From Pelagibacteraceae bacterium (GTDB lineage: Bacteria > Pseudomonadota > Alphaproteobacteria > HIMB59): 64,000 bases of DNA. The position numbers and the translations under genes were made by a program. How positions within the stretch are numbered: the stretch's first letter is position 1; the number at the start of each line of letters is the position of its first letter. Below, in pieces: positions 778-20,271 of this stretch. The stretch is from the NCBI GenBank assembly GCA_002705265.1, contig PAHR01000026.1:1-64000 (forward strand). Reading direction: 5' to 3'. The notes under the pieces are model-generated. The model was not told the DNA's origin. It was given only the letters and a program-made list of their open reading frames with translations, and made no database searches.

Positions 778-780
778 CTC

Positions 781-1047
781 ATGTTAGAAATTAAATGTCC
801 TTATTGCGGAAAACGCTCACAAAATGAATTCTCTTATGGTGGTGATGCTAATATTAAAAGACCTAAATTAGGAGATGAAGTTTCTACAAAAGATTGGGAT
901 GATTTTGTTTACTTTAGAGATAATCCAAGAGGTAAGCACTCTGAATTTTGGCATCATGTTTCAGGATGCAGACAATGGTTTAAAGCATCAAGAGATACAG
1001 CTACACATGAAATATTTAAAACTGCAAGATTGGACGAGGATTTATAA
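781..1047 (+). CDS. soxD: Sarcosine oxidase delta-like subunit / N-methylglutamate dehydrogenase subunit B
   Basis: IKCPYCGKRSQNEFSYGGDANIKRP...HHVSGCRQWF, zinc-binding SoxD pattern; position between soxB and soxA. Confidence 0.93.
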   Translation: MLEIKCPYCGKRSQNEFSYGGDANIKRPKLGDEVSTKDWDDFVYFRDNPRGKHSEFWHHVSGCRQWFKASRDTATHEIFKTARLDEDL

Positions 1048-1052
1048 GTTTT

Positions 1053-4052
1053 ATGACAGCAACATATAGAACTAACTCAGAAGACAACTTTATTAATAAA
1101 AATAAAGTAATAAATTTTACTTTTAATGGAAAATCTTATAAGGGCTACGAAGGAGACACCCTTGCTTCTGCTTTAATCGCTAATGGAGTTCACTTAGTTG
1201 GAAGAAGTTTTAAATACCATAGACCAAGAGGATTTCTTGGCGTTGGAGTTGAAGAGCCAAATGCAATGGTTCAACTTCATGAAGGTCATAAGTCAGAGCC
1301 AAATATCATAGCAACAGAAGTTGAGTTAGTAGAAGGATTAAAAGCAAAGAGTCAAAACTGCTGGCCTTCTGTTAAATTTGATATCGGTGAAATTAACGAT
1401 TTATTAAAAAGTTTTTTCCCAGCAGGTTTTTATTACAAGACCTTTATGTGGCCAAAAAGTTTTTGGATGTTGATATATGAACCTTTTATAAGAAAAGCAG
1501 CCGGAATGGGAGTTGCGCCTACAAAACCTGACCCTGATAGATATGAGCATAATTATGAACATTGTGATGTTTTGGTTGTAGGATCTGGTCCTTCTGGATT
1601 AGCTTCAGCACTAGCAGCAGCAAATAATGGAGCTAAAGTAATTTTAGCAGAAGATAAAGCTCATTTCGGAGGATCTTTATTAACTGATAATGTTACAGTA
1701 GGAAATAAAACAGGAAAAGAATGGGCTGAAGAAACCATTTCTCATTTAAAAAACCTCCCAAACGTTATTGTAAAAAATCGATCTCAGGTTTTTGGTTATT
1801 ATGATCATAATATGACAGTGATGTTCGAAAGAGTTAGTGATCACATAGAAAATCCTTCTGAATATACTCCAAGACAAAGACTACATTATATTAGAGCAGG
1901 AGAAGTAGTTGTTTCAACAGGATCAATTGAAAGACCTCTTTCTTTTGGAAATAATGACCGACCTGGAATCTTTTTATCATCTGCTGCAAATGAGTATATG
2001 AAAATTTACGGTACACTTGTTGGAAAAAAACCTATTATTTTTACAAACAATGACACTGCTTACAAGACTGCAATTGAGTTTAAGAAAAATAATATCAATC
2101 CTGTTATTCTAGATACCCGTGACTCTTCTTCAGGAGATCTTGTTAAAGAAGCAGAATCTCTTGGACTAGATATAAAATTTAATTACGGTGTTGCAAATGT
2201 TAAAGGACGTTTAAAAATATCATCCGCTACTATTGGAAAACTATCCTCTGATAAAGAAAGTTTTACTGAATTACAAGAAATTGATTGCGATTGTATTTGT
2301 ATGTCTGGAGGTTGGACTCCAACAGTTCACCTATCTTCTCAAGCTGGAAATAAACTTAAGTTTGATGAAAAAATTGATGCATTTATTCCAAATACTAAAA
2401 GGCAAAAGGAAACTGCTATTGGTGCTGCTAATGGTTCTTTTACTCTAAGTCAATCGCTAGCAGAAGGTTTTCAAGTGGGTTTTGATTTATCAAATTCGAT
2501 TACATCTAATAATAAAAAAACACCCTTACCTACATCTAATGAACCTTCTTATGAAGATCATGACAAGTTTTGGTGTATGCCGCTTCCTCAAAATCAAAAA
2601 CCTAAAAGATTTATAGATTTTCAAAATGATGTAGCTGTGTCTGATGTTGAGCTTGCAGTGAGAGAAGGATTTCGTTCAATCGAACATGTTAAGAGATATA
2701 CAACTCTTGGTATGGCTGGAGACCAGGGTAAAACAAGTAATTTAAATGGATTACAACATGTATCAAATATTCAAAAAAAGATAGTACCAGAAGTAGGCCA
2801 TACTACATTTAGACCTCCTTATACCCCTGTTACTATAGGAACAATTGTTGGTAGAGAAGTTGGAAATCATTTCCAGCCTTCTAGAAAAACACCAACACAT
2901 AATTGGCATGTAGAAAATAATGTAGTTTTTACTAATGCTGGTCTTTGGTTAAGACCACGTTATTACCCAAGGGGAAACGAAACTATGCAAGAAGCAGTTA
3001 ATAGGGAATCTTTAAATGTTAGGCAAAACGTTGGTATTTGCGATGTAACATCTCTAGGAAAAATAGATATTAAAGGACCCGATGCCTCAGAACTTTTAAA
3101 CAGAGTTTATACAAATGCATGGAAAAAACTTCCTGTTGGAAAAGCAAGATACGGAGTTATGTTAAGAGAAGATGGGATGGTATTTGATGATGGTACCACA
3201 ACAAGACTTTCTGAAAATCATTTTCATATGACCACAACTACAGCTCAGGCAGCAAATGTTTTATCTCATTTAGAGTTTTATCTTCAAGTAGTATGGCCTG
3301 AATTAAATGTTAATGTTCTTTCTACAACAGAAGAGTGGTCTGGAGCAGCTATAGCAGGACCTAAATCAAGAGATCTAATGAAAAAGATTTTCCCTTTAGT
3401 TGATTTTTCTACAGAAAAATTTCCTTTTATGGGAGTTGTTGAAACAGAGGTTTTAGGCATTCATGCAAAAATTTATAGAATCTCCTTTTCAGGTGAGCTT
3501 GCTTATGAAGTTAATGTTGAATCAAATCACGGTTTATATATGTGGAATAAAATCATTGAAGTTGGAAAAGAATTTGGAATACAGCCTTATGGAACAGAAG
3601 CTTTAGCTACGTTGAGAATTGAAATGGGACATGTCTCAGGTCCTGAGTTAGATGGACGGGCAGTACCTTATGATATTGGGTTACAAGGTATGGTTAGTCA
3701 GAAAAAAGATTTTATTGGTAAGAGGTCTTTGCAAAAAGAAGCTTTTATTCAACCTGATAGGCAAACTTTAGTAGGGATCATTCCTATAGATAAGAAAACT
3801 AAAATTCCTGAAGGGTCACATTTGGTAGAAAATGATAAAGCAGCACTGCCAAATCCTAAGCTTGGCCATGTATCATCCTCATGTTGGAGCGTTGAATATA
3901 ATAATCCTTTCTCTATAGCTGTTTTAAAAGATGGTAAAAATAAAATTGGTGAAAAATTATTTGCTGTATATCCATTAAAAAACATCTCAATTCCAGTGGA
4001 AGTTGTTTCTTCTCATTATGTTGATCCAAATGGCGAAAGGGTGAGAGTTTAA
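1053..4052 (+). CDS. soxA: Sarcosine oxidase alpha-like subunit / N-methylglutamate dehydrogenase subunit C
   Basis: 999 aa; N-terminal Fer2-like domain (FNGKSYKGYEGDTLASALIANG), FAD/NAD Rossmann motif (VLVVGSGPSGLASALAAA), C-terminal GCV_T-like domain. Confidence 0.95.
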   Translation: MTATYRTNSEDNFINKNKVINFTFNGKSYKGYEGDTLASALIANGVHLVGRSFKYHRPRGFLGVGVEEPNAMVQLHEGHKSEPNIIATEVELVEGLKAKSQNCWPSVKFDIGEINDLLKSFFPAGFYYKTFMWPKSFWMLIYEPFIRKAAGMGVAPTKPDPDRYEHNYEHCDVLVVGSGPSGLASALAAANNGAKVILAEDKAHFGGSLLTDNVTVGNKTGKEWAEETISHLKNLPNVIVKNRSQVFGYYDHNMTVMFERVSDHIENPSEYTPRQRLHYIRAGEVVVSTGSIERPLSFGNNDRPGIFLSSAANEYMKIYGTLVGKKPIIFTNNDTAYKTAIEFKKNNINPVILDTRDSSSGDLVKEAESLGLDIKFNYGVANVKGRLKISSATIGKLSSDKESFTELQEIDCDCICMSGGWTPTVHLSSQAGNKLKFDEKIDAFIPNTKRQKETAIGAANGSFTLSQSLAEGFQVGFDLSNSITSNNKKTPLPTSNEPSYEDHDKFWCMPLPQNQKPKRFIDFQNDVAVSDVELAVREGFRSIEHVKRYTTLGMAGDQGKTSNLNGLQHVSNIQKKIVPEVGHTTFRPPYTPVTIGTIVGREVGNHFQPSRKTPTHNWHVENNVVFTNAGLWLRPRYYPRGNETMQEAVNRESLNVRQNVGICDVTSLGKIDIKGPDASELLNRVYTNAWKKLPVGKARYGVMLREDGMVFDDGTTTRLSENHFHMTTTTAQAANVLSHLEFYLQVVWPELNVNVLSTTEEWSGAAIAGPKSRDLMKKIFPLVDFSTEKFPFMGVVETEVLGIHAKIYRISFSGELAYEVNVESNHGLYMWNKIIEVGKEFGIQPYGTEALATLRIEMGHVSGPELDGRAVPYDIGLQGMVSQKKDFIGKRSLQKEAFIQPDRQTLVGIIPIDKKTKIPEGSHLVENDKAALPNPKLGHVSSSCWSVEYNNPFSIAVLKDGKNKIGEKLFAVYPLKNISIPVEVVSSHYVDPNGERVRV

Positions 4053-4657
4053 TGAACCCAGAAATGATATATTTGTCTCCTTTATTCAATGATCATAAAA
4101 TTGGAAATTTTGGAGATTATAAAAATAAAAACCAAAAAGACCTTATTAAGATAAAAGAAATTACAAAAGTTAATATTTTTCAAGTAGCTAAATATAAAAA
4201 CAGTAACATAAAAATAGAAAATATTAATATGGATAACTTATCATTTCCTAATAAATACCCAGAGGTTTCATGTAATTCTGAAACGAGAATATTATGGACT
4301 GGCCCTGATGTTTGGTTAATAATTACTTCAAATCAAAATATTGAAAAAGAAATAAGTTTAAAATTATCTGAAAAAGATTTTGCTATTACTGACTTATCTC
4401 ATTCCAGAGCAATTATAGAAATATCTGGTAAACAATCTTTAGATGTTTTAAAAAAAGGAACTCCATTAAATTTAAATAGTTCAGAATTCAAAAAAAATAA
4501 CTGTTCTAATTCAACTTATAATGGAATTAGCTTTATTCTTGATTTTATTGATGAAGATCCGCTTACTTTTAGACTTTTTTGTCTAAGAAGTTTTGGTGGT
4601 TCTTTTTATCACAGCATAACAGATGCCGCTTTAGAATATGGTTATGTTGGAGAATAA
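4052..4657 (+). CDS. soxG: Sarcosine oxidase gamma-like subunit / N-methylglutamate dehydrogenase subunit D
   Basis: 201 aa, overlaps soxA stop (taATGa); WTGPDVWLI and DLSHSRAIIEISG motifs of SoxG. Confidence 0.88.
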   Translation: MNPEMIYLSPLFNDHKIGNFGDYKNKNQKDLIKIKEITKVNIFQVAKYKNSNIKIENINMDNLSFPNKYPEVSCNSETRILWTGPDVWLIITSNQNIEKEISLKLSEKDFAITDLSHSRAIIEISGKQSLDVLKKGTPLNLNSSEFKKNNCSNSTYNGISFILDFIDEDPLTFRLFCLRSFGGSFYHSITDAALEYGYVGE

Positions 4658-4660
4658 AAT

Positions 4661-5551
4661 ATGTGTGGTATCGTTGGAATTTATCTAAAAAATAAAGATC
4701 TTTCAAAAAATTTAGGAAAATACTTAGCGGGTATGATGCAAGGAATGGCTACTCGCGGTCCTGATAGTGCTGGATTTGCAATATATTCTGATCTAAAAAA
4801 GCCCAAAGACTTTAAATATTCAATTTGTTTATTAAATGATTTTTCTTTTAGTTCTTTTAAAAAATTAATTACTAAAAAATTTAAAAACATTAAACTTAAG
4901 CAAGTATCAGACCATATTGTGTTAACTTCGAGTGAAGAACCTAAAAAAATTAAATCTTTTTTAAGTAATCATCATAATAATATTTCCTTAGTTGGTTACG
5001 GAAAATCAATTGAAATTTTTAAGCAAGTAGGAAACCCTAAAGAAGTAATTAAAAATTTTAATTTAGATAACTTCGCTGGTACTCATGCGATTGGCCATAC
5101 AAGAATGGCAACTGAAAGTGCGATAACAACTAATGGATCACACCCTTATTCAACAGGGCAAGATGAATGTTTAGTTCACAATGGATCCTTATCTAATCAT
5201 AATAATTTAAGAAGAATATTATTAAATGAAGGTCAAAAATTTGACTCGGAAAATGACACCGAAGTTGCAGCCGGATATATATCAAATAGCTTACTAAAAA
5301 ACATTTCTTTAAAACAAACTTTAATAAATGGATTAAAAGACCTAGATGGTTTTTATACCTTTATAACTGGAACAAAAGAAGGTTTTGCTATTGTAAGAGA
5401 TGAAATAGCATGTAAGCCTGCTGTGATTGCAGAAACAAAAGACTATGTTGCTATAGCTTCAGAATTTCAAGCTATGGCACACCTGCCTGGAGTAAATAAA
5501 GCAAATATTTTTGAACCTGATCCTGGGGTAGTTTATTCATGGGGCAGATGA
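4661..5551 (+). CDS. mgsA: Class II glutamine amidotransferase (GlxB / N-methylglutamate synthase subunit A-like)
   Basis: MCGIVGIYL with N-terminal Cys2, ATRGPDSAGFAIY, GIGHTRMATES-type motif; directly after soxBDAG. Confidence 0.85.
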   Translation: MCGIVGIYLKNKDLSKNLGKYLAGMMQGMATRGPDSAGFAIYSDLKKPKDFKYSICLLNDFSFSSFKKLITKKFKNIKLKQVSDHIVLTSSEEPKKIKSFLSNHHNNISLVGYGKSIEIFKQVGNPKEVIKNFNLDNFAGTHAIGHTRMATESAITTNGSHPYSTGQDECLVHNGSLSNHNNLRRILLNEGQKFDSENDTEVAAGYISNSLLKNISLKQTLINGLKDLDGFYTFITGTKEGFAIVRDEIACKPAVIAETKDYVAIASEFQAMAHLPGVNKANIFEPDPGVVYSWGR

Positions 5552-6234
5552 TTAATTTAGATTTAAAAAAACAAACTCTAAGAGAAGTAAACGATCTACT
5601 ACAAAATATAGACACAAAAGCTAATTTAAGAAATTATTTAGTTTCAAATCCTAGTGGAAATCATGCAGTTTGCGCAGGATTAAAAGACGAAATGGAAGTT
5701 TTAATTAAGGGTCATGTTGGTTATTACTGTGCAGGAATGAATCAAAAAGCATTAATTACAATTGAAGGAAATGTAGGAACTGGTGTAGCTGAAAATATGA
5801 TGTCAGGAACAGTCCATGTAAAAGGAAATGCCTCTCAATCTGCAGGAGCCACAGCTCATGGAGGAACTCTTATTATAGAAGGAAACGCCAGTTCAAGATG
5901 CGGTATCTCAATGAAAGGTATAGATATAATTGTTAAAGGGTCTGTCGGCCATATGTCTGCTTTTATGGCTCAATCAGGAAATTTAGTTGTTTGTGGAGAT
6001 GCAGGTGACGCTTTAGGCGACAGTTTATATGAAGCTAAATTATTTATTAAAGGATCAGTTAAGTCTCTAGGCGCTGATTGTGAAGAAAAAAAAATGACTA
6101 AACAAGATAAAGACACATTAAAAATATTATTAAAAAAATCTAAAATTACAGATTTAAAACCTGAGGATTTTCAAATGTATGGTTCAGCTAAAAAATTATA
6201 TAATTTTAATATAGATAATGTATCGGAATATTAA
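5539..6234 (+). CDS. mgsB: Glutamate synthase beta-helix (GXGXG) domain protein (GlxC / N-methylglutamate synthase subunit B-like)
   Basis: Gly-rich repeats GNVGTGVAENMMSGTVHVKGNASQSAGATAHGG; overlaps mgsA. Confidence 0.87.
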   Translation: MGQMINLDLKKQTLREVNDLLQNIDTKANLRNYLVSNPSGNHAVCAGLKDEMEVLIKGHVGYYCAGMNQKALITIEGNVGTGVAENMMSGTVHVKGNASQSAGATAHGGTLIIEGNASSRCGISMKGIDIIVKGSVGHMSAFMAQSGNLVVCGDAGDALGDSLYEAKLFIKGSVKSLGADCEEKKMTKQDKDTLKILLKKSKITDLKPEDFQMYGSAKKLYNFNIDNVSEY

Positions 6235-6236
6235 AA

Positions 6237-7556
6237 ATGAGCGATAAATTTAAAACAACACCAAGACAGTCTTGGACATTTGATGAATATACCAACTCTG
6301 AAATTCGACGAGCCGCAGAAACTGGAATATATGACATAAGAGGAGGAGGTTCTAAAAGAAAACTTCCTCACTTTGATGATTTACTCTTCTTAGGAGCTTC
6401 TATGTCTAGATATCCACTAGAGGGGTATAGGGAAACTTGTAATACTAAAGTATCTCTTGGAACTAGGTATGCAAAAAATCCATTAAAACTTGATATTCCA
6501 ATTACAATTGCTGGAATGAGTTTTGGAGCTCTGTCTGGTCCCGCCAAAGAAGCTTTAGGAAGAGGGGCAAGTGCAGCAGGAACTTCTACTACGACTGGTG
6601 ATGGAGGGATGACACCTGAGGAAAGAGGCCAATCAAAATTTTTAGTTTACCAGTTATTGCCGTCTAGGTACGGAATGAATCCTAATGATCTTAGAAAAGC
6701 AGATGCAATTGAAGTTGTAATTGGTCAAGGAGCTAAACCTGGAGGAGGAGGAATGCTTCTCGGCCAAAAGATTAGTGATAGAGTAGCAGAAATGAGAACC
6801 TTGCCAAAAGGAATAGATCAAAGATCTGCTTGCAGGCATCCAGATTGGACTGGTCCTGATGATTTAGAAATTAAAATATTAGAATTGAGGGAAATAACGG
6901 GTTGGAAAGTTCCAATCTTTATAAAAGTTGCTGGAGCAAGACCTTACTATGATACTGCCTTAGCAGTAAAAGCTGGAGCTGATGTTGTTGTATTGGATGG
7001 AATGCAAGGAGGAACAGCAGCTACTCAAGAAGTATTTATTGAAAATGTAGGACAACCTACATTAGCTTGTATAAGACCGGCGGTTCAAGCCCTACAAGAT
7101 TTAGGAATGCACAGAAAAGTTCAATTAGTTATTTCAGGTGGAATTCGCAATGGAGCCGATGTAGCTAAAGCTATGGCCTTAGGAGCAGATGCTGTTTCTA
7201 TAGGTTCAGCTGCTTTAATTGCTTTAGGAGATAATGATCCCAAATGGCAAGAAGAATATAAAAAACTTGGTACTACAGCTGGGGCTTATGACGATTGGCA
7301 CGAAGGCAAAGATCCAGCTGGTATAAACACACAAGATCCTAAGTTAATGAAAAGATTTGATCCTATAGCTGGAGGAAGAAGACTTTCTAATTACTTAAAA
7401 GTAATGACTTTAGAAGCTCAAACTATTGCTAGGGCTTGTGGAAAAAATGATTTACATAACCTAGAACCTGAAGACTTATGCGCTTTAACAGTAGAAGCTG
7501 CAGCAATGGCTGGCGTGCCTTTATCTGGAACAAATTGGATACCAGGCAATACTTAA
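6237..7556 (+). CDS. mgsC: Glutamate synthase FMN-domain protein (GlxD / N-methylglutamate synthase subunit C-like), lacking the usual Fe-S cysteines
   Basis: FGALSGPAKEALGRGASAAGTSTTTGDGGM, GQGAKPGGGGMLLGQK, SGGIRNGADVAKAMALGADAVSIGSAAL. Confidence 0.88.
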   Translation: MSDKFKTTPRQSWTFDEYTNSEIRRAAETGIYDIRGGGSKRKLPHFDDLLFLGASMSRYPLEGYRETCNTKVSLGTRYAKNPLKLDIPITIAGMSFGALSGPAKEALGRGASAAGTSTTTGDGGMTPEERGQSKFLVYQLLPSRYGMNPNDLRKADAIEVVIGQGAKPGGGGMLLGQKISDRVAEMRTLPKGIDQRSACRHPDWTGPDDLEIKILELREITGWKVPIFIKVAGARPYYDTALAVKAGADVVVLDGMQGGTAATQEVFIENVGQPTLACIRPAVQALQDLGMHRKVQLVISGGIRNGADVAKAMALGADAVSIGSAALIALGDNDPKWQEEYKKLGTTAGAYDDWHEGKDPAGINTQDPKLMKRFDPIAGGRRLSNYLKVMTLEAQTIARACGKNDLHNLEPEDLCALTVEAAAMAGVPLSGTNWIPGNT

Positions 7557-7690: not shown

Positions 7691-8455
7691 ATGGAAGATA
7701 AATATATAAATAAGTCTTTAGAAAAATCTTTTAAAATTTTAGAAATTTTATCTCAATCTATTTTTCCTTTGAAAGCAAGTTTAATATCGAGAAAATCATG
7801 TATGTCAAGAACGACAACTTTTAGATTATTGTCTGTGTTAAATAAATTAGGTTATATTCACAAAAATACTTCTACAAATACTTATACTATCGGACATAAA
7901 GCTTTTCAATTTGGTGAAATTTCAGATTACCTTCAGTCAATTTCTGATGAAGCTAAAGATATATTGGAAGAACTTTCGAAACAAACTGGTCTTATAACAT
8001 ATTTAGCAATGCTAGAAGGACCTCAAATAGTTCACTCAGATAAAATTTCTTCACAAACCGATTCTGGTAATTTTAGAACTTTTAGAATGAGGTTAGATGC
8101 ACACTGCTGTGCTTTAGGTAAAGTGATTTTAGCTTATAGGCCAGATAATGAAATATCACTTATATACAAAAGTTATAATTTTTATCCTCATACTACTAAT
8201 ACTATAAATAATATTAATTCTCTTAAGAAAGAATTGAATTTAATAAAAAAACAAGGATACGCTCTTAATCATGGAGAAACATTTGAAAATGTTTATGGCA
8301 TTGGAGTAGCTATTCTAGATAATGAAAAGAGATCTTTTGCTGGTCTGTCTTTCTCCGGTAGTAAGAATCTAATGTCTCCTAAAGAACTTCCTTTATTTGT
8401 TAAACTATTACAGTCAGCTTCAATAAAAATAACTAACCTAATTGTTAACAAGTAA
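7691..8455 (+). CDS. IclR-family transcriptional regulator
   Basis: N-terminal HTH (SLEKSFKILEILSQS...SLISRKSCMSRTTTFRLLSVLNKLGYI) and IclR effector-binding domain (RLDAHCCALGKVILAY). Confidence 0.93.
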   Translation: MEDKYINKSLEKSFKILEILSQSIFPLKASLISRKSCMSRTTTFRLLSVLNKLGYIHKNTSTNTYTIGHKAFQFGEISDYLQSISDEAKDILEELSKQTGLITYLAMLEGPQIVHSDKISSQTDSGNFRTFRMRLDAHCCALGKVILAYRPDNEISLIYKSYNFYPHTTNTINNINSLKKELNLIKKQGYALNHGETFENVYGIGVAILDNEKRSFAGLSFSGSKNLMSPKELPLFVKLLQSASIKITNLIVNK

Positions 8456-8578: not shown

Positions 8579-9925
8579 ATGGGAATACCTACAAATTGTG
8601 AATACCTTATTATAGGAGCGGGAATTCATGGGTTAAGCACAGCTTGGCACCTTTGTCAAAAATTATCAAAAAAAGGTCAGTTAAAAGAAAATTCAGTTGT
8701 TGTGCTGGAAAAAACAAAAGTAGCAGATGGTGCAAGTGGTGTAGCATGTGGAATTGTTAGAAATAATTATTATCAGCCAGCTATGAGAAGATTAATGGAT
8801 CACTCTATAAAAGTTTGGAATGCGAATGCAGATGCTTTAACTTTTAAGCCTGTAGGTTATATGCAAATAAATTCTGAACTAATGCGTGAAGGAATGTCTG
8901 AAGTTTACGAGCAACAAAAAGAAATCAATTTTGAATCAACTTTTATTGAAGGCAAAGATGATTGTGATAAATATATGAAAGATCTTTTACCAGATTGGCA
9001 AGCTGAAGATATTACTTCTGTTCTCCATGAGAAAAATAGTGGTTATGGAGCTAATAGAGGAGCTATTGAAGGTTTTTATAAATTAGCTTTAAATGCAGGA
9101 GCAAAAGTTTTTGAAGGAGTTGAGGTAACAAATTTATTGTCTTCGAATGGTAGTGGATCAATATCTGCTGTTGAAACTTCCGAGGGTAAAATTGAATGTA
9201 CTCAACTTGTAGTAGCAGCAGGACCTTGGGTTAGAAAATTTTGGGAAATCTTAGAACTTCCAAATACAGTTAAAATAAAAAAACCAGATGGGACTTTCAC
9301 AGAAGACTTACAAATGTGGTCATATATGGCTTTGGAAGAAGGTGAACTTGAAGTAGATCCCCATTCTTTTAAAACTTCTAATGGAAAAGAATACCCAGTG
9401 ATTCATGTAGATACTGAAGCAACTTTAATTTCTAATAAAACAGGTGAAGTTATTCATGAGAATGAAATGTGGGGTTTTTATTATAAACCTGATGTTTATA
9501 GAAATTGTATTCAAGGAGGATCTTCTCCTTATGATATTCAAAAATCCAATAAAGATGTTGCAGTAGATCCTTATGGTCATAATTCTCTTGAGTTTCAACC
9601 CACAGCTTTTTTTGAAGATAAATGGACTTCTGCAATGGCTTTTTGTCAAAAGCAATTTGATGGATGTCACGGAAAATATAGAAAACAAAAAGGTGGAGGA
9701 ATTGGTTGTGTAACCCCAGACCGTTTTCCTGTCTTTGACCAATATAAAGAAAACGTTTATATTATTGCTGATGCTAATCACGGCTATAAAATGGCTGGTA
9801 TAGGAGATTTAGTTTCAGAAGAATTATTAGGAGGAAAATCTGATATTTTAGAACCTTTTAGATTTTCTAGATATGAAGAAGGGAAATTACATCCGGTCTC
9901 TAAGAGCCCGTTCCCTTGGAGTTGA
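8579..9925 (+). CDS. FAD-dependent oxidoreductase, DAO family (SoxB-like, substrate unknown)
   Basis: YLIIGAGIHGLSTAWHLCQ dinucleotide-binding motif; DGASGVACGIVRNNYYQPAM; VAAGPWVRKFW; strong RBS cggaggtttt. Confidence 0.9.
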   Translation: MGIPTNCEYLIIGAGIHGLSTAWHLCQKLSKKGQLKENSVVVLEKTKVADGASGVACGIVRNNYYQPAMRRLMDHSIKVWNANADALTFKPVGYMQINSELMREGMSEVYEQQKEINFESTFIEGKDDCDKYMKDLLPDWQAEDITSVLHEKNSGYGANRGAIEGFYKLALNAGAKVFEGVEVTNLLSSNGSGSISAVETSEGKIECTQLVVAAGPWVRKFWEILELPNTVKIKKPDGTFTEDLQMWSYMALEEGELEVDPHSFKTSNGKEYPVIHVDTEATLISNKTGEVIHENEMWGFYYKPDVYRNCIQGGSSPYDIQKSNKDVAVDPYGHNSLEFQPTAFFEDKWTSAMAFCQKQFDGCHGKYRKQKGGGIGCVTPDRFPVFDQYKENVYIIADANHGYKMAGIGDLVSEELLGGKSDILEPFRFSRYEEGKLHPVSKSPFPWS

Positions 9926-9945
9926 TGTAGAGGAGGAAAAGTAAA

Positions 9946-11406
9946 ATGACACCATTAGAGACATACGTAGCAGACAAAGAAAGAAATGAAAACGTTAAAA
10001 AAGTAAGAAAAAAAATAGATGAGCTTGGCATAGATTATATTTATTATCAGTTTATTTCAGTAACAGGAAGAATAGTAGGTAAGGGCGTTCCCGCAGATCA
10101 TTGGGAAAGTATGGCTAAAAAAGGTTTCCAATTGGTTTATGGAGCAACAGCAAACTTATTTACAAATAGGCATGGCAACTATATTGGATATGGACCAGAA
10201 GCTCATGAATTAGTTGGTATTCCTGATCCAGAAACTTTTATTCAAATTCCTTGGGACAAAAGAATTGCTAGAGTTTTTTGTACTTGTTTTAGAAATAGAG
10301 AAGAAGAGGAAAACCCAGGTGGTTTTTTAACTTCTGATTGTCGAGGAAACCTAAAAAGACAACATAAAGATTTTAAAGACAAGCACGGACTAGAATTAAG
10401 AGCAGGTACTGAGCCTGAGATGATGTGGTTAACTAAAAAAGACGATGGCACTCCAACAGGATCAGGTTTTTCAAAACCTTATTGCTATCATATTGATCAA
10501 TTTGAATCTTTAAGACCTGTTTATATGAAGGTTATTGAATACTCAAGAGCAATGGGTCTTGATATAATTCAAGGCGACCATGAGGACGCACCAGGCCAAC
10601 TTGAACTTAACTTTAATTATGATGAAGTAGTAAGAAATGCTGACAGACTCTCAACATATAGGCAAATTTGTGCACAAGTAGCTAGAGAGTTTAATTTAAT
10701 TGCATGTTTCTTATCTAAACCTTTTGTTGGTGTTTCCGCATCAGGATGTCATACGAATATTTCATTATGGAAAGAAGGGTCTGATAAAATAGTTTCTTGT
10801 GGTAATAAACAACTTCCAGGTATGGAACAAGTTTTTCATCATAGAGAAGGTGGTGAAAATGTATTTATGCCTGATACTGATGATAGAAGAATACCAGGAA
10901 AAGTAGGGTTACATGCAATAGGTGGTGTAATGGAACATCTTCCTGCGTTAACAGCTTTAGGTTCTTCCACAGTTAATTCATATAGAAGGCTTTGGGATGC
11001 TGGTTTTTGGGCTCCTGTTTATGCTGATTGGGGTTATCAAAATAGAACTTGTGGTTTAAGAGTTTCTGCTCCTGGACGATTTGAATATCGATCAGTTGAT
11101 TCAGCTCATAATCCATATCTGATGGGTTCAGGTTTATTAGCTGCTTTTGATCACGGCATTGACGAAAAAATGGATCCTGGAAAACCTGAGCAAGCAAACA
11201 TGTATGAAGCAAACGAGGGTAAAGAAAAACTTCCAATGACCTTAGGTGAAGCACTTGAAAAATTAGACAAAGATGAACGTATTCAAGGAGCATTACCAGG
11301 AGACATGTTAAGAGTATTTACTGAATATAAAAGAGATGAATGGGAAGAATTCCTAGCAACTCCAACTCAGTGGGATCTTGATAAATATTTGGATTGTTTG
11401 CCATAA
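9946..11406 (+). CDS. Glutamine synthetase family protein (amine-glutamate ligase candidate)
   Basis: QGDHEDAPGQLELNF, SGCHTNISLW, STVNSYRRL, NRTCGLRVSAPGRFEYRSVDSAHNPYL; GS catalytic-domain signatures. Confidence 0.92.
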   Translation: MTPLETYVADKERNENVKKVRKKIDELGIDYIYYQFISVTGRIVGKGVPADHWESMAKKGFQLVYGATANLFTNRHGNYIGYGPEAHELVGIPDPETFIQIPWDKRIARVFCTCFRNREEEENPGGFLTSDCRGNLKRQHKDFKDKHGLELRAGTEPEMMWLTKKDDGTPTGSGFSKPYCYHIDQFESLRPVYMKVIEYSRAMGLDIIQGDHEDAPGQLELNFNYDEVVRNADRLSTYRQICAQVAREFNLIACFLSKPFVGVSASGCHTNISLWKEGSDKIVSCGNKQLPGMEQVFHHREGGENVFMPDTDDRRIPGKVGLHAIGGVMEHLPALTALGSSTVNSYRRLWDAGFWAPVYADWGYQNRTCGLRVSAPGRFEYRSVDSAHNPYLMGSGLLAAFDHGIDEKMDPGKPEQANMYEANEGKEKLPMTLGEALEKLDKDERIQGALPGDMLRVFTEYKRDEWEEFLATPTQWDLDKYLDCLP

Positions 11407-11425
11407 AAAACAAGGAGTAAGTAAT

Positions 11426-12373
11426 ATGTGCGGAATAGCAGGAGTAATAAATAGAGCTAGCAAGACAGTTAATGTTGGTGAACAAATGAAGTTAATGCTT
11501 CAAGGAATTAAACATAGAGGCCCTGATTCAACTGGCTATGCTATGTATGGTAAACCAATAAAAGAAGGTTTTATTTTAAGATTTAAAATTTCTGAGAATA
11601 CTGCTGAGCAAAGTAAAGCTAAAGCAGAGGACCCTGAAATTTTAAAAGATCGTAAAAAACAAATCGATAAAATAATGAAAGATCATGGTGCTAAAGTAAC
11701 TAAACAATCTTCTAGTACACCATATGCTTTCCGCTATGAATTTACTTATAAGAGTGAAAATTTAGAAGAGTTAGCGAAAGCTATTGAATCGGTTGAAAAA
11801 GCAGAAATACTTTCAATTGGTAAAGGCCTTGAACTCATAAAAGACTTAGGAGATGCTACTACCGTTTCAGATCAGTATGGGTTAAGTAAATTTATGGGAA
11901 CTCATGGTATTGGTCATACTAGAATGGCTACAGAATCGGATGTTGACATTAAATCAGCACATCCATATTGGGCTTTTCCTTATCAAGATGTTGCCGTAGT
12001 TCACAATGGCCAACTTACTAATTATTGGGGCAATAGAAGAATTTTAGAAAGAAGTGGTTATAGATTTAACTCAAACTGTGACTCTGAAATTATTGCTGTA
12101 TACATTGCCGATAAAATGGCAAATGGTATTGATCTTGAAAAGGCAATGCATGATAGTCTTGATGAACTAGATGGTGTATTTACTTATATTGTTTCTACAA
12201 AAGATAAGCTAGGAATGGCTAAAGACCATATGGCTGCAAAACCAATGGTTATATATGAAGGTGATGATATTGTTGCTTGTGCCTCAGAGGAAGTTGCAAT
12301 TAGAAATATTTTTCCTCATGAAATTACAACGTATGACCCATTTGAAGCGGAGGTAAAAGTATGGCAGGGCTAG
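11426..12373 (+). CDS. Class II glutamine amidotransferase domain protein (split glutamate synthase-like, second copy)
   Basis: Start placed at internal ATG giving MCGIAGVINR (Cys2 nucleophile) preceded by RBS aaggagtaagta; RGPDSTGYAMY; GIGHTRMATESDVD. Confidence 0.88.
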   Translation: MCGIAGVINRASKTVNVGEQMKLMLQGIKHRGPDSTGYAMYGKPIKEGFILRFKISENTAEQSKAKAEDPEILKDRKKQIDKIMKDHGAKVTKQSSSTPYAFRYEFTYKSENLEELAKAIESVEKAEILSIGKGLELIKDLGDATTVSDQYGLSKFMGTHGIGHTRMATESDVDIKSAHPYWAFPYQDVAVVHNGQLTNYWGNRRILERSGYRFNSNCDSEIIAVYIADKMANGIDLEKAMHDSLDELDGVFTYIVSTKDKLGMAKDHMAAKPMVIYEGDDIVACASEEVAIRNIFPHEITTYDPFEAEVKVWQG

Positions 12374-13197
12374 AAAAAAAGAAAACAGCTTTTGATGATG
12401 AGAATTTATCAGGAAGATCTCAAAAATTATTTTTTGATATTACAGAAGAGGAAAACTTTACTTACTATGGCAACCATGATGTTGATTTCAATAAAAGAAT
12501 AGAAATTGATTGTGAAAATTTAAACGGCAATCAATTAAATCAAAAAATTCGTGATGCAATAAGAAATGGTTATGGCACCGTGGCTATCAAAAATCCTGGA
12601 GCTAAACATGCTCTTGGAGTTGGAATTCTTAATAAACTAAATTTAATATTTGAAGGAAGTCTCGGTTATTTTGGAGTTGGCTGTATAGACGGTCCTACAG
12701 TTAGAATTAATGGTAGAGTCGGATGGTCTTGTGCTGAAAATATGATGTCAGGAAAAGTTGTTGTCGAAAATAATGCTGGATCATGTTTTGGTGCAGCTTT
12801 AAGAGGAGGAGACTTAATCGTAAAAGGTAATGCGGGTGCAAGAACAGGAATTGATATGAAGGGTGGAACTATTTTGATAGGCGGTAATGCTGGAGCATAT
12901 ACAGGATTTATGATGCAAAGGGGTAGAATAATTGTTTGCGGTGATGTAAGTGCAAATATGGGCGACTCTATGTATGATGGAATTATTTTTGTTGGTGGTG
13001 ATCCGAAATCACTAGGTACTGATTGTGTTGAAGGAGAAATGAACGAACATGAAGTTAGATGGTTAGAACAAAAATTTAAAAATGCAGAAATTCAACCAAA
13101 AGTTCCCGCATCAAAGTTTAAAAAATATGTAGCAGGTAGGATGCTTTGGAATTATGACAATTTAGAACCTGCAGAAAAGAAAGGTATTTTAGGTTAA
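12361..13197 (+). CDS. Glutamate synthase GXGXG-domain protein (second copy)
   Basis: GRVGWSCAENMMSGKVVVENNAGSCFGAALRGGDLIVKGNAGARTGIDMKGG repeats; overlaps preceding gene. Confidence 0.88.
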   Translation: MAGLEKKKTAFDDENLSGRSQKLFFDITEEENFTYYGNHDVDFNKRIEIDCENLNGNQLNQKIRDAIRNGYGTVAIKNPGAKHALGVGILNKLNLIFEGSLGYFGVGCIDGPTVRINGRVGWSCAENMMSGKVVVENNAGSCFGAALRGGDLIVKGNAGARTGIDMKGGTILIGGNAGAYTGFMMQRGRIIVCGDVSANMGDSMYDGIIFVGGDPKSLGTDCVEGEMNEHEVRWLEQKFKNAEIQPKVPASKFKKYVAGRMLWNYDNLEPAEKKGILG

Positions 13198-13200
13198 AGA

Positions 13201-14535
13201 ATGACAAAACGTAATACACAACTATTAGGTCAAAATTCCATATTTACTCCCGAAGTTATGGATGACATTCATATTAAGGCACAATTAGGTCGCTACCGTA
13301 TGCGAGGTATGGCTTTAATGAAAAAAATACCTCATTGGGATGATTTGGTTTTTCTCCCAGGTACTTTAACAAGATTTGTTATAGAAGGTTATCGAGAGAA
13401 ATGTCTTACTGAAACCATAATTGGTCCAAGAGCAAAAAATCCTATTAAACTTGATATACCTGTCTATATAACAAGTATGAGTTTCGGAGCATTATCCTAT
13501 GAAGCTAAAACTGCTTTAGCTAGAGGGGCTTCAATGGCAGGGAGTGCTACATGTTCTGGTGAAGGTGGAATGATACCTGATGAGAGAAGATATTCTAATA
13601 AATGGTACTATCAGTGTATACAATCTAGATATGGGTTTAATCCTCATCATGCTCAATTAGCTGATGCAATTGAAGTTTTTATTGGACAAGGACAAAAGGT
13701 AGGTATGGGCGGACATCTTATGGGTCAAAAAGTTACAGATCAAGTAGCAGAGATGAGATCTCTACCAGCAGGTATAGATCAAAGATCTCCAGCAAGACAC
13801 CCAGATTGGATGGGGCCAGATGACCTTGCTTTAAAAGTTCAAGAATTAAGAGAACTAACAGATAACCAAGTTCCAATTCAGTTAAAATTAGGAGCTTCAA
13901 GAGTCTATGATGATGTTCGTATGGCAGCTAAATGTGATCCGGATTCAATATTTCTTGATTCTATGGAAGGGTCAACAGCAGCAGGACCACACATCGCTGC
14001 TTCAAATACCGGCATACCTGGAATAGGGGCAGTTAGAGAAGCAAGAAGAGCTTTAGACGATGTTGGTAAATCTGGAGAAATCTCTCTTGTTTTTGCTGGT
14101 GGTATTAGAGATGGTGCTGATATGGCTAAAGCTTTAGCTTTAGGTGCAGATGCAATAGCAATTGGAACCGCTGGTCTTGTCGCATTAAATTGTAATAAAG
14201 ACACACCTGAAGCTGACTATGAAAAAGAAATGGGAGTAGAAGCAGGTTATTGCTATCACTGTCATACTGGTAGATGTCCTGTAGGAGTAGCTACACAAGA
14301 TCCTATTCTTAGAAGTAGATTAGATCCTACTGAAGCTGCAGATAGAGTTTATAATCTTTTAAGTACTATGACTTTAGAATGCCAAATGTTAGCAAGAGCA
14401 TGTGGTAAGACAAATATTCATTCACTTGAACCAGAAGACTTAGCTGCTTTAACTATGGAATCATCAGCAATGGCAAAAGTGCCTCTTGCTGGCACTGACC
14501 TTACCGTCGGTGTTGATAATTATCACTCAATATAG
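13201..14535 (+). CDS. Glutamate synthase FMN/Fe-S domain protein (second copy, Fe-S cysteines retained)
   Basis: SFGALSYEAKTALARGASMAGSATCSGEGGM; AGYCYHCHTGRCPVGVATQDP; GGIRDGADMAKALALGADAIAIGTA. Confidence 0.92.
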   Translation: MTKRNTQLLGQNSIFTPEVMDDIHIKAQLGRYRMRGMALMKKIPHWDDLVFLPGTLTRFVIEGYREKCLTETIIGPRAKNPIKLDIPVYITSMSFGALSYEAKTALARGASMAGSATCSGEGGMIPDERRYSNKWYYQCIQSRYGFNPHHAQLADAIEVFIGQGQKVGMGGHLMGQKVTDQVAEMRSLPAGIDQRSPARHPDWMGPDDLALKVQELRELTDNQVPIQLKLGASRVYDDVRMAAKCDPDSIFLDSMEGSTAAGPHIAASNTGIPGIGAVREARRALDDVGKSGEISLVFAGGIRDGADMAKALALGADAIAIGTAGLVALNCNKDTPEADYEKEMGVEAGYCYHCHTGRCPVGVATQDPILRSRLDPTEAADRVYNLLSTMTLECQMLARACGKTNIHSLEPEDLAALTMESSAMAKVPLAGTDLTVGVDNYHSI

Positions 14536-14544
14536 GAGATTAAA

Positions 14545-15027
14545 ATGGTAAAAAATAAAAAAACTTCAAAAAAATCTTCGCTAAAGAAAAAAGCAAAAAA
14601 AGCAACTACTTCTAAATCTAATTATAAAGTTGTAGGAGGGGCAAAGTTAAAAGACAAAGAAATAAAAACATCTAGGGAGAAAATGATAGGCCAGCATATT
14701 GGATATAGATATGACGTTAATTTAATTCCTGATTACAAAAAAATAACTCCTTTTTTGAAAAAATACGTAGATATTATGGGATGGGATGATTTAAATTGGT
14801 TAGAGGATATTCATATGGGATTTGAAGGTGATAATCCAGCTGTGTTTGATAGAAATGCTAATGCTTGGATTACTCTTCCTAAGAAAATGAAACTACCAAA
14901 AGATCAACAAGATAGAGATATGTTAGCAAGAGAATTACTTATTAAATTCCAAATGTCTCCAGATCATCCTTTAGTTCAATTAAAGAGAACATATGCAAAA
15001 GGTGAAAATTTTAAATTAGTTGAATAA
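14545..15027 (+). CDS. Conserved-looking hypothetical protein with Lys-rich N-terminal tail
   Basis: ORF 160 aa directly downstream of FMN-domain gene with RBS taggagatt; no family recognised. Confidence 0.7.
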   Translation: MVKNKKTSKKSSLKKKAKKATTSKSNYKVVGGAKLKDKEIKTSREKMIGQHIGYRYDVNLIPDYKKITPFLKKYVDIMGWDDLNWLEDIHMGFEGDNPAVFDRNANAWITLPKKMKLPKDQQDRDMLARELLIKFQMSPDHPLVQLKRTYAKGENFKLVE

Positions 15028-15048: not shown

Positions 15049-15432
15049 TTAATAAATTTTAACTTCTTCTAATCCTTTTTCTCTATCAATAAATTTTTGT
15101 TCTATTTTAATAGCTTCGAATTCTTTATTAACTAATTCAAATATTATTTTTGGATCAAAATCTGCACAAGAATAAACATCAAGTTGTAATAAAGCGGGGT
15201 TAATTTCATCCCAAGTATGTAAAGCTATATGACTAGTTTCTATAATTGTTACTGAAGTCATTCCTTTATTTCCTTTTATTTCACAATATGTTGTATAAGG
15301 ACCACCAAGAATTTTCATATCGATTTTTTTTATTAATTGTCTAATCCAATCAGTTAAAGTATTTATATCTTTGTTAGTAGGTGGTTTTTTAATATTAGCT
15401 CTTATAATTAAGTGTTTATGTTTTACTGTCAT
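15049..15432 (-). CDS. S-adenosylmethionine decarboxylase-like protein (SpeD/SpeH family, pyruvoyl enzyme)
   Basis: GNKGMTSVTIIETSHIALHTWDE...LQLDVYSCADF resembles SpeD self-cleavage and catalytic motif (SESHxxIHTWPE...DVFTCG). Confidence 0.8.
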   Translation of the reverse strand: MTVKHKHLIIRANIKKPPTNKDINTLTDWIRQLIKKIDMKILGGPYTTYCEIKGNKGMTSVTIIETSHIALHTWDEINPALLQLDVYSCADFDPKIIFELVNKEFEAIKIEQKFIDREKGLEEVKIY

Positions 15433-15483: not shown

Positions 15484-16041
15484 CTAATCTGTAATTCTTA
15501 TTAATTCTGATTTTTTCCAATCAGGTATAAATTTAATAATATCAATATCATTTCCTAAACCTGGATTAAAATTTTTATTATGCCAAAATATATTTTCCCA
15601 ATGATCTTCATCTCTATCTAATTTAAAAGGCGAACACTTTAATTTATAATTTGTTGAAAGATGTAAGAAATCTAAATAGCAAGTACCATCTTTTATAATT
15701 TTTTTTTGTATAGTTGAATCTATAGGAAAAGTAGCAAATAATGAGTCTGAAAATTTATGTCGATCCAAAAAATAATCTGAAGATAGAAACTTTTTCATTT
15801 TATCAAATCGAGTAGCTGGGTCGTAGGTTTGTTTATAGGTATGTTCAAACATTTTTGTTGTATTAACAGGATCACTTTCAGTAATTACAACTATTACTTT
15901 ATTTAATTCGTTTCCTTTCTTGTCTAAAAGCATTGGTGACATGGAAGAGTTTGGTTTTCCTCCTTGTACGCGAAATGCCTGAACTCTCGATTGACATTGC
16001 CAGTCTAGAAATTTTTCTCTTAAAATTTCAGGTGAAAGCAT
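15484..16041 (-). CDS. Hypothetical protein (start placed at internal ATG; ORF track start 16077 overlaps the upstream GS gene)
   Basis: Open frame MLSPEILREKFLDWQCQSRVQAFRVQGG..., co-directional and immediately downstream of the GlnT/GmaS-like gene. Confidence 0.65.
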   Translation of the reverse strand: MLSPEILREKFLDWQCQSRVQAFRVQGGKPNSSMSPMLLDKKGNELNKVIVVITESDPVNTTKMFEHTYKQTYDPATRFDKMKKFLSSDYFLDRHKFSDSLFATFPIDSTIQKKIIKDGTCYLDFLHLSTNYKLKCSPFKLDRDEDHWENIFWHNKNFNPGLGNDIDIIKFIPDWKKSELIRITD

Positions 16042-16046
16042 TTTGT

Positions 16047-17354
16047 TTAACAGTCCAGAGTAGTATTTCTTTCCCAATTAGAAAGAAAATTAGCATATGA
16101 TTGCCATTCTTTATTTTTGAGTTTTACATAACTATCGACAAATTGGTCTCCAAATCCTTCTCTAATAATCTTTGAAGATTGAAAATTCCTTATTGAGTCT
16201 AGTAAATTTAATGGAAGTTTTTTAACTTTTCCAGCTTTATGCCCTTCAGTATACATATTTATATCAAGTCTTTTTCCTGGATCTCTTTTGTTTTTAATTC
16301 CATCTAAACCTAAAATAAGACTTCCTGCTTGAAGTAAATATGGATTTGAGGCACCATCCATTAATCTTAATTCAAATCTTCCTGGACCCGGAACTCTAAC
16401 CATATGTGTTCTGTTATTACCTGCCCATGTAATAGAACTTGGAGACCAAGTAGCTCCAGATAATGTTACCGAACCATTAATCCTTTTATAGCTATTTACT
16501 GTTGGATTAAATATTGCGGCCATTTTATCAGCACTATTAACTATACCTCCTAAAAATTGATAACCAGTTTTAGAAAGACCTAATTCATCTTTTTTATCTA
16601 AGAACAAATTCTTTTTTCCAGATTTATCCCAAATTGAAATATGACTATGGCAGCCATTTCCAGTTAAGTTTGAAAATGGTTTTGGCATAAAAGTTGCTCT
16701 CAAGCCATGTTTTTCAGCAATTGTTTTAGTCATAAATTTAAAAAAAGCATGCCTATCTGCTGTCTTTAGACAATCTGAAAAATCCCAATTCATTTCAAAT
16801 TGCCCATTAGCATCCTCATGGTCATTTTGATAAGGTTTCCATCCTAATGAAATCATAGAGTCACAAATTTCTGTGATCACATCATATCTTCTCATTAAAG
16901 CAGATGAATCGTAACAAGGTTTTTCTTGAGTATCTTTAAGATCAGATAAAGAAGTTCCATCAGAATTTACTAAAAAATATTCACATTCAACTCCTGACTT
17001 CATATGCATTCCTAATTTTGAAGCTTTTTCTATTTGTCTTTTAAGTGCTATACGAGGGGAAGCTTCTACTGGCTTACCATCCATATACAAATCTGATGCT
17101 ACCCATGCTATTCTTTTATCCCAAGGAAGTTGTATAACACTATCTCCGTCAGGTATTCCAAACATATCAGGGTCAGAAGGAGACATATCTAACCAAGTTG
17201 CAAAACCTGCAAAACCTGCACCCTCGGATTGAATTTCATCTATAGCTGTTGCTGGAACTAATTTTGATCGCAATACTCCAAATAGATCAACGAAACTAAC
17301 AAAAAAATATTGAATTTTATTTTTCTTTGCATAATTAAATAAGTTTATTGACAT
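16047..17354 (-). CDS. Type III glutamine synthetase-like protein (GlnT / gamma-glutamylmethylamide synthetase GmaS candidate)
   Basis: FDVSFVDLFGVLRSKLVPA-like N-terminus, YQNDHEDANGQFEMNW, GNGCHSHISIWD, NPTVNSYKRING, WAGNNRTHMVRVPGPGRFELRLMDGASNPYL. Confidence 0.88.
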   Translation of the reverse strand: MSINLFNYAKKNKIQYFFVSFVDLFGVLRSKLVPATAIDEIQSEGAGFAGFATWLDMSPSDPDMFGIPDGDSVIQLPWDKRIAWVASDLYMDGKPVEASPRIALKRQIEKASKLGMHMKSGVECEYFLVNSDGTSLSDLKDTQEKPCYDSSALMRRYDVITEICDSMISLGWKPYQNDHEDANGQFEMNWDFSDCLKTADRHAFFKFMTKTIAEKHGLRATFMPKPFSNLTGNGCHSHISIWDKSGKKNLFLDKKDELGLSKTGYQFLGGIVNSADKMAAIFNPTVNSYKRINGSVTLSGATWSPSSITWAGNNRTHMVRVPGPGRFELRLMDGASNPYLLQAGSLILGLDGIKNKRDPGKRLDINMYTEGHKAGKVKKLPLNLLDSIRNFQSSKIIREGFGDQFVDSYVKLKNKEWQSYANFLSNWERNTTLDC

Positions 17355-17535: not shown

Positions 17536-18837
17536 ATGACTTTAGAAGAACTAACGTCGTACGTTGTAGTTCAGTCTGCTACCGTCGCTGAAGCGTGGTA
17601 TTATGTATGTACTGGACTTATGGTAGCAATTCACGTCGGTTTTTTAATGTATGAGGTAGGCGCTTCAAGAATGAAGAATGCCGTTTCCTCTGGTGTTAAA
17701 AACTTACTCGCTTTTGCGTTTATGATTCCGACTTTTTGGCTATTTGGTTGGTATATCTATCTTGCATTCCCACATGGGTTAGTGCCAATGGATATGGAAG
17801 GATATGGTGTTCCTTGGAATGTTTCTATGGGTCCAATGCTTTCCGATCAACTAACAGGTGTTTTCTGGGCTGCATTTACTTTGTTTGCTTGTACAACTGC
17901 ATCTGTATTTTCAGGAGCTGTAATTGAAAGAATTAGAATAAGTTCTTTTACTTTCTTAGCAGTCTTACTTGGTTCCGTTTGTTGGAACTTAGGCGCTTCA
18001 TGGGGATGGCACTATGATGGTTGGCTAGTAACTCAATTTGGTTATCATGATGTAGCAGCAGCTGGTGTTGTTCATATGATTGCAGGTTGGTTTGCTTTTG
18101 GTGTTATTTTAAATTTAGGACCAAGAGTTGGTAGATACAATGCTGATGGATCAATGAACGAAATCGAAGGACATGACTTACGTTTCTCATTTATTGGATT
18201 ACTTATGATAATCGTTGGTTTCTTTGGTTTCTTAGGTGCTTGTTTGATTTGGCCAGGATTACCTGCTTTAGGTATGCAAGAGGTTACAACATGGACAAAT
18301 ATCTACGGTGCTCCAGCAACTATGAGTTCATTTGCTTACAATACCTTAATGGGTCTTGGGGGCGGAATGATTGGTGCTTTCTGGATGAGTAAAGGTAATC
18401 CTTTTTGGATGATGTCAGGTGGACTGGCGGGAATATTCTCCTGTGCTGCTGGCCTAGACATTTGGTACCCAGGACTTGCTTTTGTATTAGGTTTTGTAGG
18501 TGGAGTAATTATTATTCCAGCTAATAATCTTTTACATAGTATCTTTAAAATAGATGATCCAGTTGGAGCTGTATCCATTCATGGTGTTGCAGGTATTTGG
18601 GGTGTATTAGCAATGGGTTTATTTGCCTCTGGTATAGCTGGACCTTCTGAAGCTATTCCAGCAGTATCGCTATGGGGTCAATTTGTTGGCTGTATAGTAA
18701 TGTTTGCTGTAGGTTTTGTACCCGGATATGTTGTATCATTTATTATGAAAATGATGGGATGGCTAAGAGTACCAGATCACGTTCAAATTGCTGGTATTGA
18801 TAAAGCTGAACTTGGTTTAAAAGCCACGAATTATTAA
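17536..18837 (+). CDS. amtB: Ammonium transporter Amt
   Basis: 433 aa multi-TM; MYEVGASRMKNAVSSGVKNLLAF, GVVHMIAGWFAFG, VSIHGVAGIWGVLAMGLFA signatures. Confidence 0.96.
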   Translation: MTLEELTSYVVVQSATVAEAWYYVCTGLMVAIHVGFLMYEVGASRMKNAVSSGVKNLLAFAFMIPTFWLFGWYIYLAFPHGLVPMDMEGYGVPWNVSMGPMLSDQLTGVFWAAFTLFACTTASVFSGAVIERIRISSFTFLAVLLGSVCWNLGASWGWHYDGWLVTQFGYHDVAAAGVVHMIAGWFAFGVILNLGPRVGRYNADGSMNEIEGHDLRFSFIGLLMIIVGFFGFLGACLIWPGLPALGMQEVTTWTNIYGAPATMSSFAYNTLMGLGGGMIGAFWMSKGNPFWMMSGGLAGIFSCAAGLDIWYPGLAFVLGFVGGVIIIPANNLLHSIFKIDDPVGAVSIHGVAGIWGVLAMGLFASGIAGPSEAIPAVSLWGQFVGCIVMFAVGFVPGYVVSFIMKMMGWLRVPDHVQIAGIDKAELGLKATNY

Positions 18838-20026: not shown

Positions 20027-20271
20027 TTTTCTTTGGTTGCTATTGTTAGAAGAACTAAAGCTATTATAGCTAATAATCCAGATCCAATTGAAAAGTAGAA
20101 TATATTTAAAGCAGCTTTCAAAAAAGTGCTCTTATCAATAATTTTGTAAGCAAAAATTGGGTTCTCTAGACCTTGGTCTATAATAGTCATGAATGTAAGT
20201 ATAATGAAAGTTGTTCCAAAAGCTCTTTTGTAAAATTTTTTCCAACTTCGTTTAAATAAACTTATATTCAT
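20023..20271 (-). CDS. Small two-TM hypothetical membrane protein
   Basis: 82 aa ORF with hydrophobic segments; convergent with amidotransferase gene. Confidence 0.55.
   Translation of the reverse strand: MNISLFKRSWKKFYKRAFGTTFIILTFMTIIDQGLENPIFAYKIIDKSTFLKAALNIFYFSIGSGLLAIIALVLLTIATKEN

Follow-up and report, generated by a model that had tools for sequence, protein, structure and literature searches.

Which amine does a bacterium process with a second gene cluster of the N-methylglutamate-pathway type when it already carries a complete first one? This question is raised by positions 8579 to 15027 of a 64,000-nucleotide stretch of DNA (positions 1 to 64,000 of contig PAHR01000026.1; hereafter, the window) from a Pelagibacteraceae bacterium of the HIMB59 lineage. 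Here, a glutamine synthetase (GS)-like ligase, which we call GSx, is followed by a split glutamate-synthase-like trio, xA, xB, and xC (xABC), and by a 160-amino-acid (160-aa) protein. These five genes are referred to as the core, and the core, together with a DAO-family flavoprotein (DAO) in the window, as the module. On balance, we favor the explanation that the module extends the N-methylglutamate pathway by a branch for dimethylamine (DMA) that requires no oxygenase.

Composition and conservation of the module

The six genes of the module are encoded in the same direction in a single tight operon, with intergenic distances of 20, 19, -13, 3, and 9 bases.

8579..9925, plus strand: DAO-family flavin adenine dinucleotide (FAD) protein, proposed N,N-dimethylglutamate demethylase (PF01266; orthologues; R61 and K404)
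9946..11406, plus strand: GSx, GS-family ligase, proposed gamma-glutamyl-dimethylamide synthetase (Gln-synt_C PF00120 in two pieces; own clade; GmaS amine-site residues)
11426..12373, plus strand: xA, class II glutamine amidotransferase (GATase) subunit (PF13522/PF13537; Cys2 and HNG conserved)
12361..13197, plus strand: xB, GXGXG-domain subunit (PF01493; adjacent in synteny)
13201..14535, plus strand: xC, flavin mononucleotide (FMN)/iron-sulfur (Fe-S) glutamate-synthase-like subunit (Glu_synthase PF01645; own clade; Fe-S cysteines)
14545..15027, plus strand: 160-aa protein, constant companion of the trio (no Pfam match, no fold match)

These coordinates and domain matches confirm the gene set of a preliminary description of this DNA, namely, a DAO-family oxidoreductase, a GS-like ligase, and a GATase/GXGXG/FMN trio that are co-directional with tiny gaps or overlaps. 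The GATase, GXGXG, and FMN parts are three separate genes, and no GltD gene lies inside the operon. The start of xA is ATG 11426 and not TTG 11378, so that the protein begins MCGIAG and Cys2 is the expected N-terminal nucleophile; among xA homologues, Cys2 is present in 80 of 81 and the HNG motif in all 81.

Among 60 relatives searched, DAO orthologues sharing 75-85% identity occur in most of the window's genus; four genomes from another family of the order have one with 51% identity, and there GSx and xC reach 75% and 87% identity, respectively. The order DAO-GSx-xA-xB-xC-160aa, together with the split-barrel protein u197, the ligase GmaS, and the transporter Amt, is syntenic in both families, while of these two families only that of the window was found to have genes for the N-methylglutamate dehydrogenase MgdABCD and the N-methylglutamate synthase MgsABC adjoining the module. 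Ligases of the GSx clade occur in 39 of 386 evenly sampled alphaproteobacterial genomes; 37 of these are of the module type, mostly at ~70% identity. The best 80 of 538 relatives in a scan of named genomes belong to Alphaproteobacteria, Gammaproteobacteria, and Cyanobacteria and, by record title, to Gemmatimonadota, Latescibacterota, and Acidobacteria; many of them carry the core GSx-xA-xB-xC-160aa. Taklimakanibacter lacteus SYSU D60012 (L190) has the DAO in addition to the core. Because the gene order is conserved in the genus, in a second family, and far beyond, the arrangement is not due to chance.

To describe the surroundings of the trio, we surveyed 50 loci that contained it with sufficient flanks. 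The 160-aa protein was present in 50/50, u197 in 33/50, DAO in 32/50, and Amt in 27/50; the trimethylamine N-oxide (TMAO) demethylase Tdm or Tmm was found in 24/50, GmaS nearby in 11/50, SoxB-like genes in 7/50, and dimethylformamidase in 2/50. The conserved core is therefore the ligase, the trio, and the 160-aa protein. On the preliminary description's question of whether the oxidoreductase is conserved together with the other genes, the answer is a partial one: the flavoprotein is adjacent only in those 32 loci. Its further suggestion that a single-subunit oxidoreductase takes the place of MgdABCD does not agree with these data, since MgdABCD adjoins the module in the window, SoxB-like genes adjoin it in some other genomes, and DAO is adjacent in only part of the loci. 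The protein that it had described as Lys-rich is the 160-aa protein; the Lys-rich tail is a trait of the window's lineage, and the conserved part comprises the C-terminal ~115 residues. A search of Pfam gave no match for this protein, and its fold, which was poorly predicted (predicted local distance difference test [pLDDT], 69.8), matched no other fold.

The ligase and the FMN subunit form clades of their own

The module shares with the N-methylglutamate pathway (GmaS, MgsABC, and MgdABCD) a GS-family ligase beside a split GATase/GXGXG/FMN trio, a link to a flavin dehydrogenase, and the active-site residues of the ligase and the amidotransferase. In IQ-TREE phylogenies, however, GSx forms a single clade (98/99) apart from the GmaS/GlnT group that includes the structurally solved RhGmaS (100/99), and it also lies outside the PuuA and GlnA groups. 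Likewise, xC forms one clade (99/99) apart from the MgsC-like proteins of Sinorhizobium, Paracoccus aminophilus, Acidithiobacillus, and others, outside both the MgsC/GlxD and the GltB groups. Outgroup branches are long in both trees, leaving the deep branching order unsure. That neither protein falls inside a characterized group supports the preliminary description, which had proposed a second N-methylglutamate-pathway-like module for an amine other than methylamine. The module further differs from the standard pathway in its extra DAO and its obligate 160-aa protein, in its ties to DMA-releasing enzymes, in replacing dmmDABC, and in sitting beside a complete copy of that pathway.

The amine site of GSx was compared with that of RhGmaS as defined previously (PMC7948447). 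GSx retains K30, Y147, Q175, D177, E179, E186, N188, E122, R312, and R317 of RhGmaS. All seven monomethylamine-site residues are as in GmaS and unlike those of GlnA and PuuA, and the ammonium-binding Asp is missing; the changes relative to RhGmaS are F47L, A48V, and Y174I, all close to the site, and H237N. RhGmaS itself accepts DMA poorly, with a Km of 16 mM (PMC7948447), which indicates that the ligase fold is capable of DMA ligation.

Similar to glutamate synthase (GltB/GltD), the trio has matching GATase, GXGXG, and FMN/Fe-S domains, and xC keeps the Fe-S ([3Fe-4S]) cysteines of the FMN domain. In contrast to GltB, it is split into three genes, has an alkylamine-type ligase as a partner, and lies far outside GltB in the tree. 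The same cysteines are gone from the window's own MgsC (6237-7556), which reads AYDDWHEGKD in their place, as in Rhodobacteraceae and Sinorhizobium, and groups with the cysteine-less type. Since MgsC of a congener (G029) retains the cysteines, this grouping suggests that the window's MgsC was acquired by gene replacement.

Outside its clade, GSx is most closely related to GS-pair ligases (Paracoccus sp. TOH and Ruegeria sp. SCSIO 43209; 53-63% identity) and to actinobacterial homologues, including that of Gordonia KTR9 (36-40%). Unlike GSx, these have no trio and are paired with a second GS or placed in other catabolic clusters. The sister GS type occurs with a second, divergent GS gene and without the trio at L008 12505-15452 and L009 11126-13946 and in L081, L088, L089, and L095, in P450, ABC-transporter, and GATase contexts; this pair is probably another amine-ligation system.

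The module is linked to DMA-producing enzymes

Tdm releases DMA (PMC8918994). Proteins encoded beside the module score above the curated cutoffs of the NCBIfam equivalogs NF053776 (Tdm) and NF058570 (Tmm), with one Tdm just under. Across the 386 alphaproteobacterial genomes, Tdm was present in 27 of 37 genomes with the module and in 7 of 349 others (Fisher P value, 6e-27). The pairing is tighter still in the SAR11-like order around G259, where GSx and Tdm each occur in 28 of 68 genomes and both occur together in 27; the seven genomes of the genus of G259 that lack GSx also lack Tdm. The window's genome has its own Tdm on contig C32. Dimethylformamidase also releases DMA. Genes of this type were more common in genomes with the module (18/37 versus 56/349; P value, 2e-5) and adjoin it in L084 and L135.

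We then compared the module with DmmDABC, which was sought through one subunit with the HODM profile, followed by inspection of the clusters. Among the 34 Tdm-positive genomes, the profile matched none of the 27 that have the module but 5 of the 7 that lack it (P value, 8e-5). Because the Pfam HODM family over-calls Dmm, with HODM proteins outside dmm clusters in G081 and in the genus g1, true dmm clusters were checked. A true dmmDABC is present in G215, G303, G332, and G359 but not in G081, giving a strict count of four of the seven. In Tdm-positive genomes, the module stands in for dmmDABC and not for GmaS-MgsABC. The module and DmmDABC fill one place in metabolism and sit in similar trimethylamine/TMAO gene neighborhoods but have no proteins in common; no HODM, DmmA, DmmB, or DmmD genes are found in the module, and where DmmDABC employs an oxygenase, the module would rely on ATP-dependent ligation and flavoproteins. 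Collectively, the co-occurrence with Tdm, the near-exclusivity with Dmm, and the neighboring genes indicate that the substrate, which the preliminary description had left open, is probably DMA, and this is the strongest part of our interpretation.

SAR11 and its relatives reportedly have no dmmDABC, the only known marine DMA-degrading enzyme, and its absence has been read as a bottleneck of methylated-amine turnover and a reason for DMA aerosols over the ocean (PMC5520151). Strain HTCC1062 nevertheless grows weakly on TMAO as the sole nitrogen source, and a replacement for DmmDABC has been postulated (PMC8918994). In the closed genome G446, the gene order is TmoX, Tdm, a 116-aa protein, DAO, GSx, xA, xB, xC, the 160-aa protein, Amt, MgsABC, and GmaS. 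This order agrees with the published SAR11 numbering, in which SAR11_1302 is opuAC, 1303 is gcvT-like, 1304 is annotated "monomeric sarcosine oxidase," 1313 to 1315 are glxBCD, and 1316 is glnT (PMC3160333). From this correspondence, SAR11_1304 would be the DAO, and the ocean bacteria that bear the module probably include SAR11. The module is a concrete candidate for the postulated DmmDABC replacement, located directly between tdm and gmaS. The conserved 116-aa open reading frame between Tdm and DAO was observed in SAR11-like genomes at L113 4766-5116 and L077 12210-12560.

A proposed route from DMA to glutamate

By analogy with the standard pathway, we infer the substrates and products of all the new genes as follows. 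GSx, like GmaS, would join DMA to glutamate at the expense of ATP, yielding gamma-glutamyl-dimethylamide. As suggested by MgsABC, xA would hydrolyze this amide and DMA would be channeled through xABC to the FMN site, where its reductive addition to 2-oxoglutarate would give N,N-dimethylglutamate. The DAO may then take off one methyl group, as formaldehyde or as a tetrahydrofolate (THF)-bound one-carbon unit, leaving N-methylglutamate, from which the known MgdABCD would strip the second methyl to give glutamate. That N,N-dimethylglutamate is the intermediate and that the DAO demethylates it are weaker parts of this scheme, each with about an even chance of being right.

The DAO has a GxGxxG nucleotide-binding motif and two invariant residues, R61 and K404, that are common to MgdA and SoxB and absent in PuuB. 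In the DAO family, residues of this type bind the substrate carboxylate. Similar to sarcosine oxidase beta and MgdA in its fold and in these two residues, the DAO differs from them in its ~20-24% identity, its stand-alone nature, its diverged middle and C-terminal regions, and an operon without a THF-binding subunit. Orthologues beyond the genus share about 50-54% identity. The best NCBIfam match, TIGR01373, scores 60 bits against a cutoff of 529, and searches of plasmids with the DAO returned only ~25% relatives and no module.

We found no description of such a pathway in the open-licence literature, where the works retrieved for N,N-dimethylglutamate or gamma-glutamyl-dimethylamide are, by title, medical or natural-product studies. 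There is about an even chance that a widespread pathway, in which ligation of DMA to glutamate is followed by its transfer to the alpha-nitrogen, giving N,N-dimethylglutamate, and by two demethylations that involve no oxygenase, is the unrecognized DMA route of SAR11, of the HIMB59/AEGEAN-169 group, and of many Gammaproteobacteria. If true, estimates of marine DMA consumers would be revised, and a secondary-amine branch would be added to glutamate-linked methylotrophy.

Evidence against the proposed DMA branch and alternative explanations

Several findings weigh against this proposal. In three Tdm-positive genomes (G028, G081, and G383), the module is missing and no dmmDABC cluster was seen either, and ten genomes with the module have no Tdm, with a dimethylformamidase-type gene in only four of those. 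As Tdm and the module are frequent neighbors, their joint loss accounts for part of the co-occurrence; in addition, the Tdm, Dmm, and module counts treat related genomes as independent, with shared ancestry uncorrected. The DAO is missing from the flanks of 18 of the 50 trio loci and is for this reason the least certain assignment. Finally, G346, a genome without the module, still has an MgdC orthologue but neither MgsC nor xC. Retention of Mgd is consequently a weak test of the final step and no proof of it.

The missing DAO genes would fit an alternative in which DMA is captured by GSx and xABC, the first demethylation is carried out by another enzyme (MgdABCD alone or a PhyH-type 2-oxoglutarate dioxygenase), and the DAO is an accessory protein. 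Tdm or Tmm lies near 11 of the 18 loci without it, PhyH-type genes recur near GSx, and SoxB-like genes adjoin the module in the seven loci noted above. We nevertheless regard this alternative as unlikely, since the DAO is present in 18 of 21 class-sample loci, is ~50% conserved across families, and retains the residues common to N-methyl amino-acid oxidases.

It is less probable that the module is a second monomethylamine route, composed of GmaS and MgsABC isoenzymes with the DAO replacing MgdABCD. The architecture is the same as that of GmaS-MgsABC, several searched module genomes have no MgsC orthologue, and GmaS is nearby in 11 of the 50 loci. However, a complete GmaS-MgsABC-MgdABCD set accompanies the module in the window, L113 combines the module with GmaS-MgsABC, the GSx and xC clades are separate, and it is dmmDABC that is replaced in Tdm-positive genomes. 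An equally doubtful possibility is that the module acts on another amine, or on several across its family, and that the Tdm link reflects a general methylotrophic lifestyle. This would account for the ten module genomes without Tdm and for the P450 and aldehyde dehydrogenase contexts of the related GS-pair and actinobacterial ligases, including a P450-bearing plasmid of Gordonia KTR9, but it agrees poorly with the 27-of-28 Tdm pairing in the SAR11-like order, the exclusivity with the Dmm profile, and the dimethylformamidase neighbors. An ordinary ammonia-assimilating GS/GOGAT-like system, for which homology to GS and GOGAT speaks, is very improbable given the GmaS-type amine site of GSx without the ammonium-binding Asp, the separation of the GSx and xC clades from GlnA and GltB, and the normal GlnA already present elsewhere in the window (41278-42693).

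Flanking genes and related loci

In the window, MgdABCD, MgsABC, and an IclR-family regulator precede the module on its 5' side, and u197, GmaS, and Amt follow on its 3' side.

1..4657, plus strand: MgdABCD, SoxBDAG-like N-methylglutamate dehydrogenase; the window edge cuts the first gene
4661..7556, plus strand: MgsABC, N-methylglutamate synthase
7691..8455, plus strand: regulator of the IclR family that, in the window's order, lies upstream of the module (PF01614/PF09339; syntenic in the order)
15484..16050, minus strand: u197, protein with a predicted PNPOx/heme-oxygenase-like split barrel, in many lineages oriented convergently to the module (loci survey; AlphaFold; Foldseek)
16047..17354, minus strand: GmaS, gamma-glutamylmethylamide synthetase of the standard pathway (638 bits to TIGR03105; in one group with RhGmaS 7cql)
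17536..18837, plus strand: Amt, ammonium/methylammonium transporter, often adjoining the module (27/50 loci)

The AlphaFold model of u197 (pLDDT, 95) matched FMN/heme split barrels in Foldseek with E values of 1.1e-4 to 1e-3, and u197 is thus predicted with high confidence to be a PNPOx/heme-oxygenase-like split barrel. A SpeH-like S-adenosylmethionine decarboxylase gene (15049-15432, minus strand) sits between the genes for the 160-aa protein and u197 and is missing from the same gap in the listed relatives. At 19283-21767, a class I amidotransferase and a further GS-like ligase (GS20k) are kept near Amt across the genus. Between MgsC and IclR, three loci (L042 13837-15123, L041 14561-15847, and L045 8793-10079) carry an additional DAO-family gene that is missing in the window; its best NCBIfam match is L-pipecolate oxidase, under the cutoff.

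Among the matches listed, cyanobacteria have GSx without the trio, which in two loci lies beside Tmm (L156 5388-9467 and L140 6532-9467) and in L156 beside Tdm as well. A PhyH-type dioxygenase-like gene recurs near this trio-less cyanobacterial GSx. In an Arenicellales genome, a second and more divergent GATase/GXGXG/FMN trio, with ~40% identity to xABC, lies beside the module (L124, from ~688).

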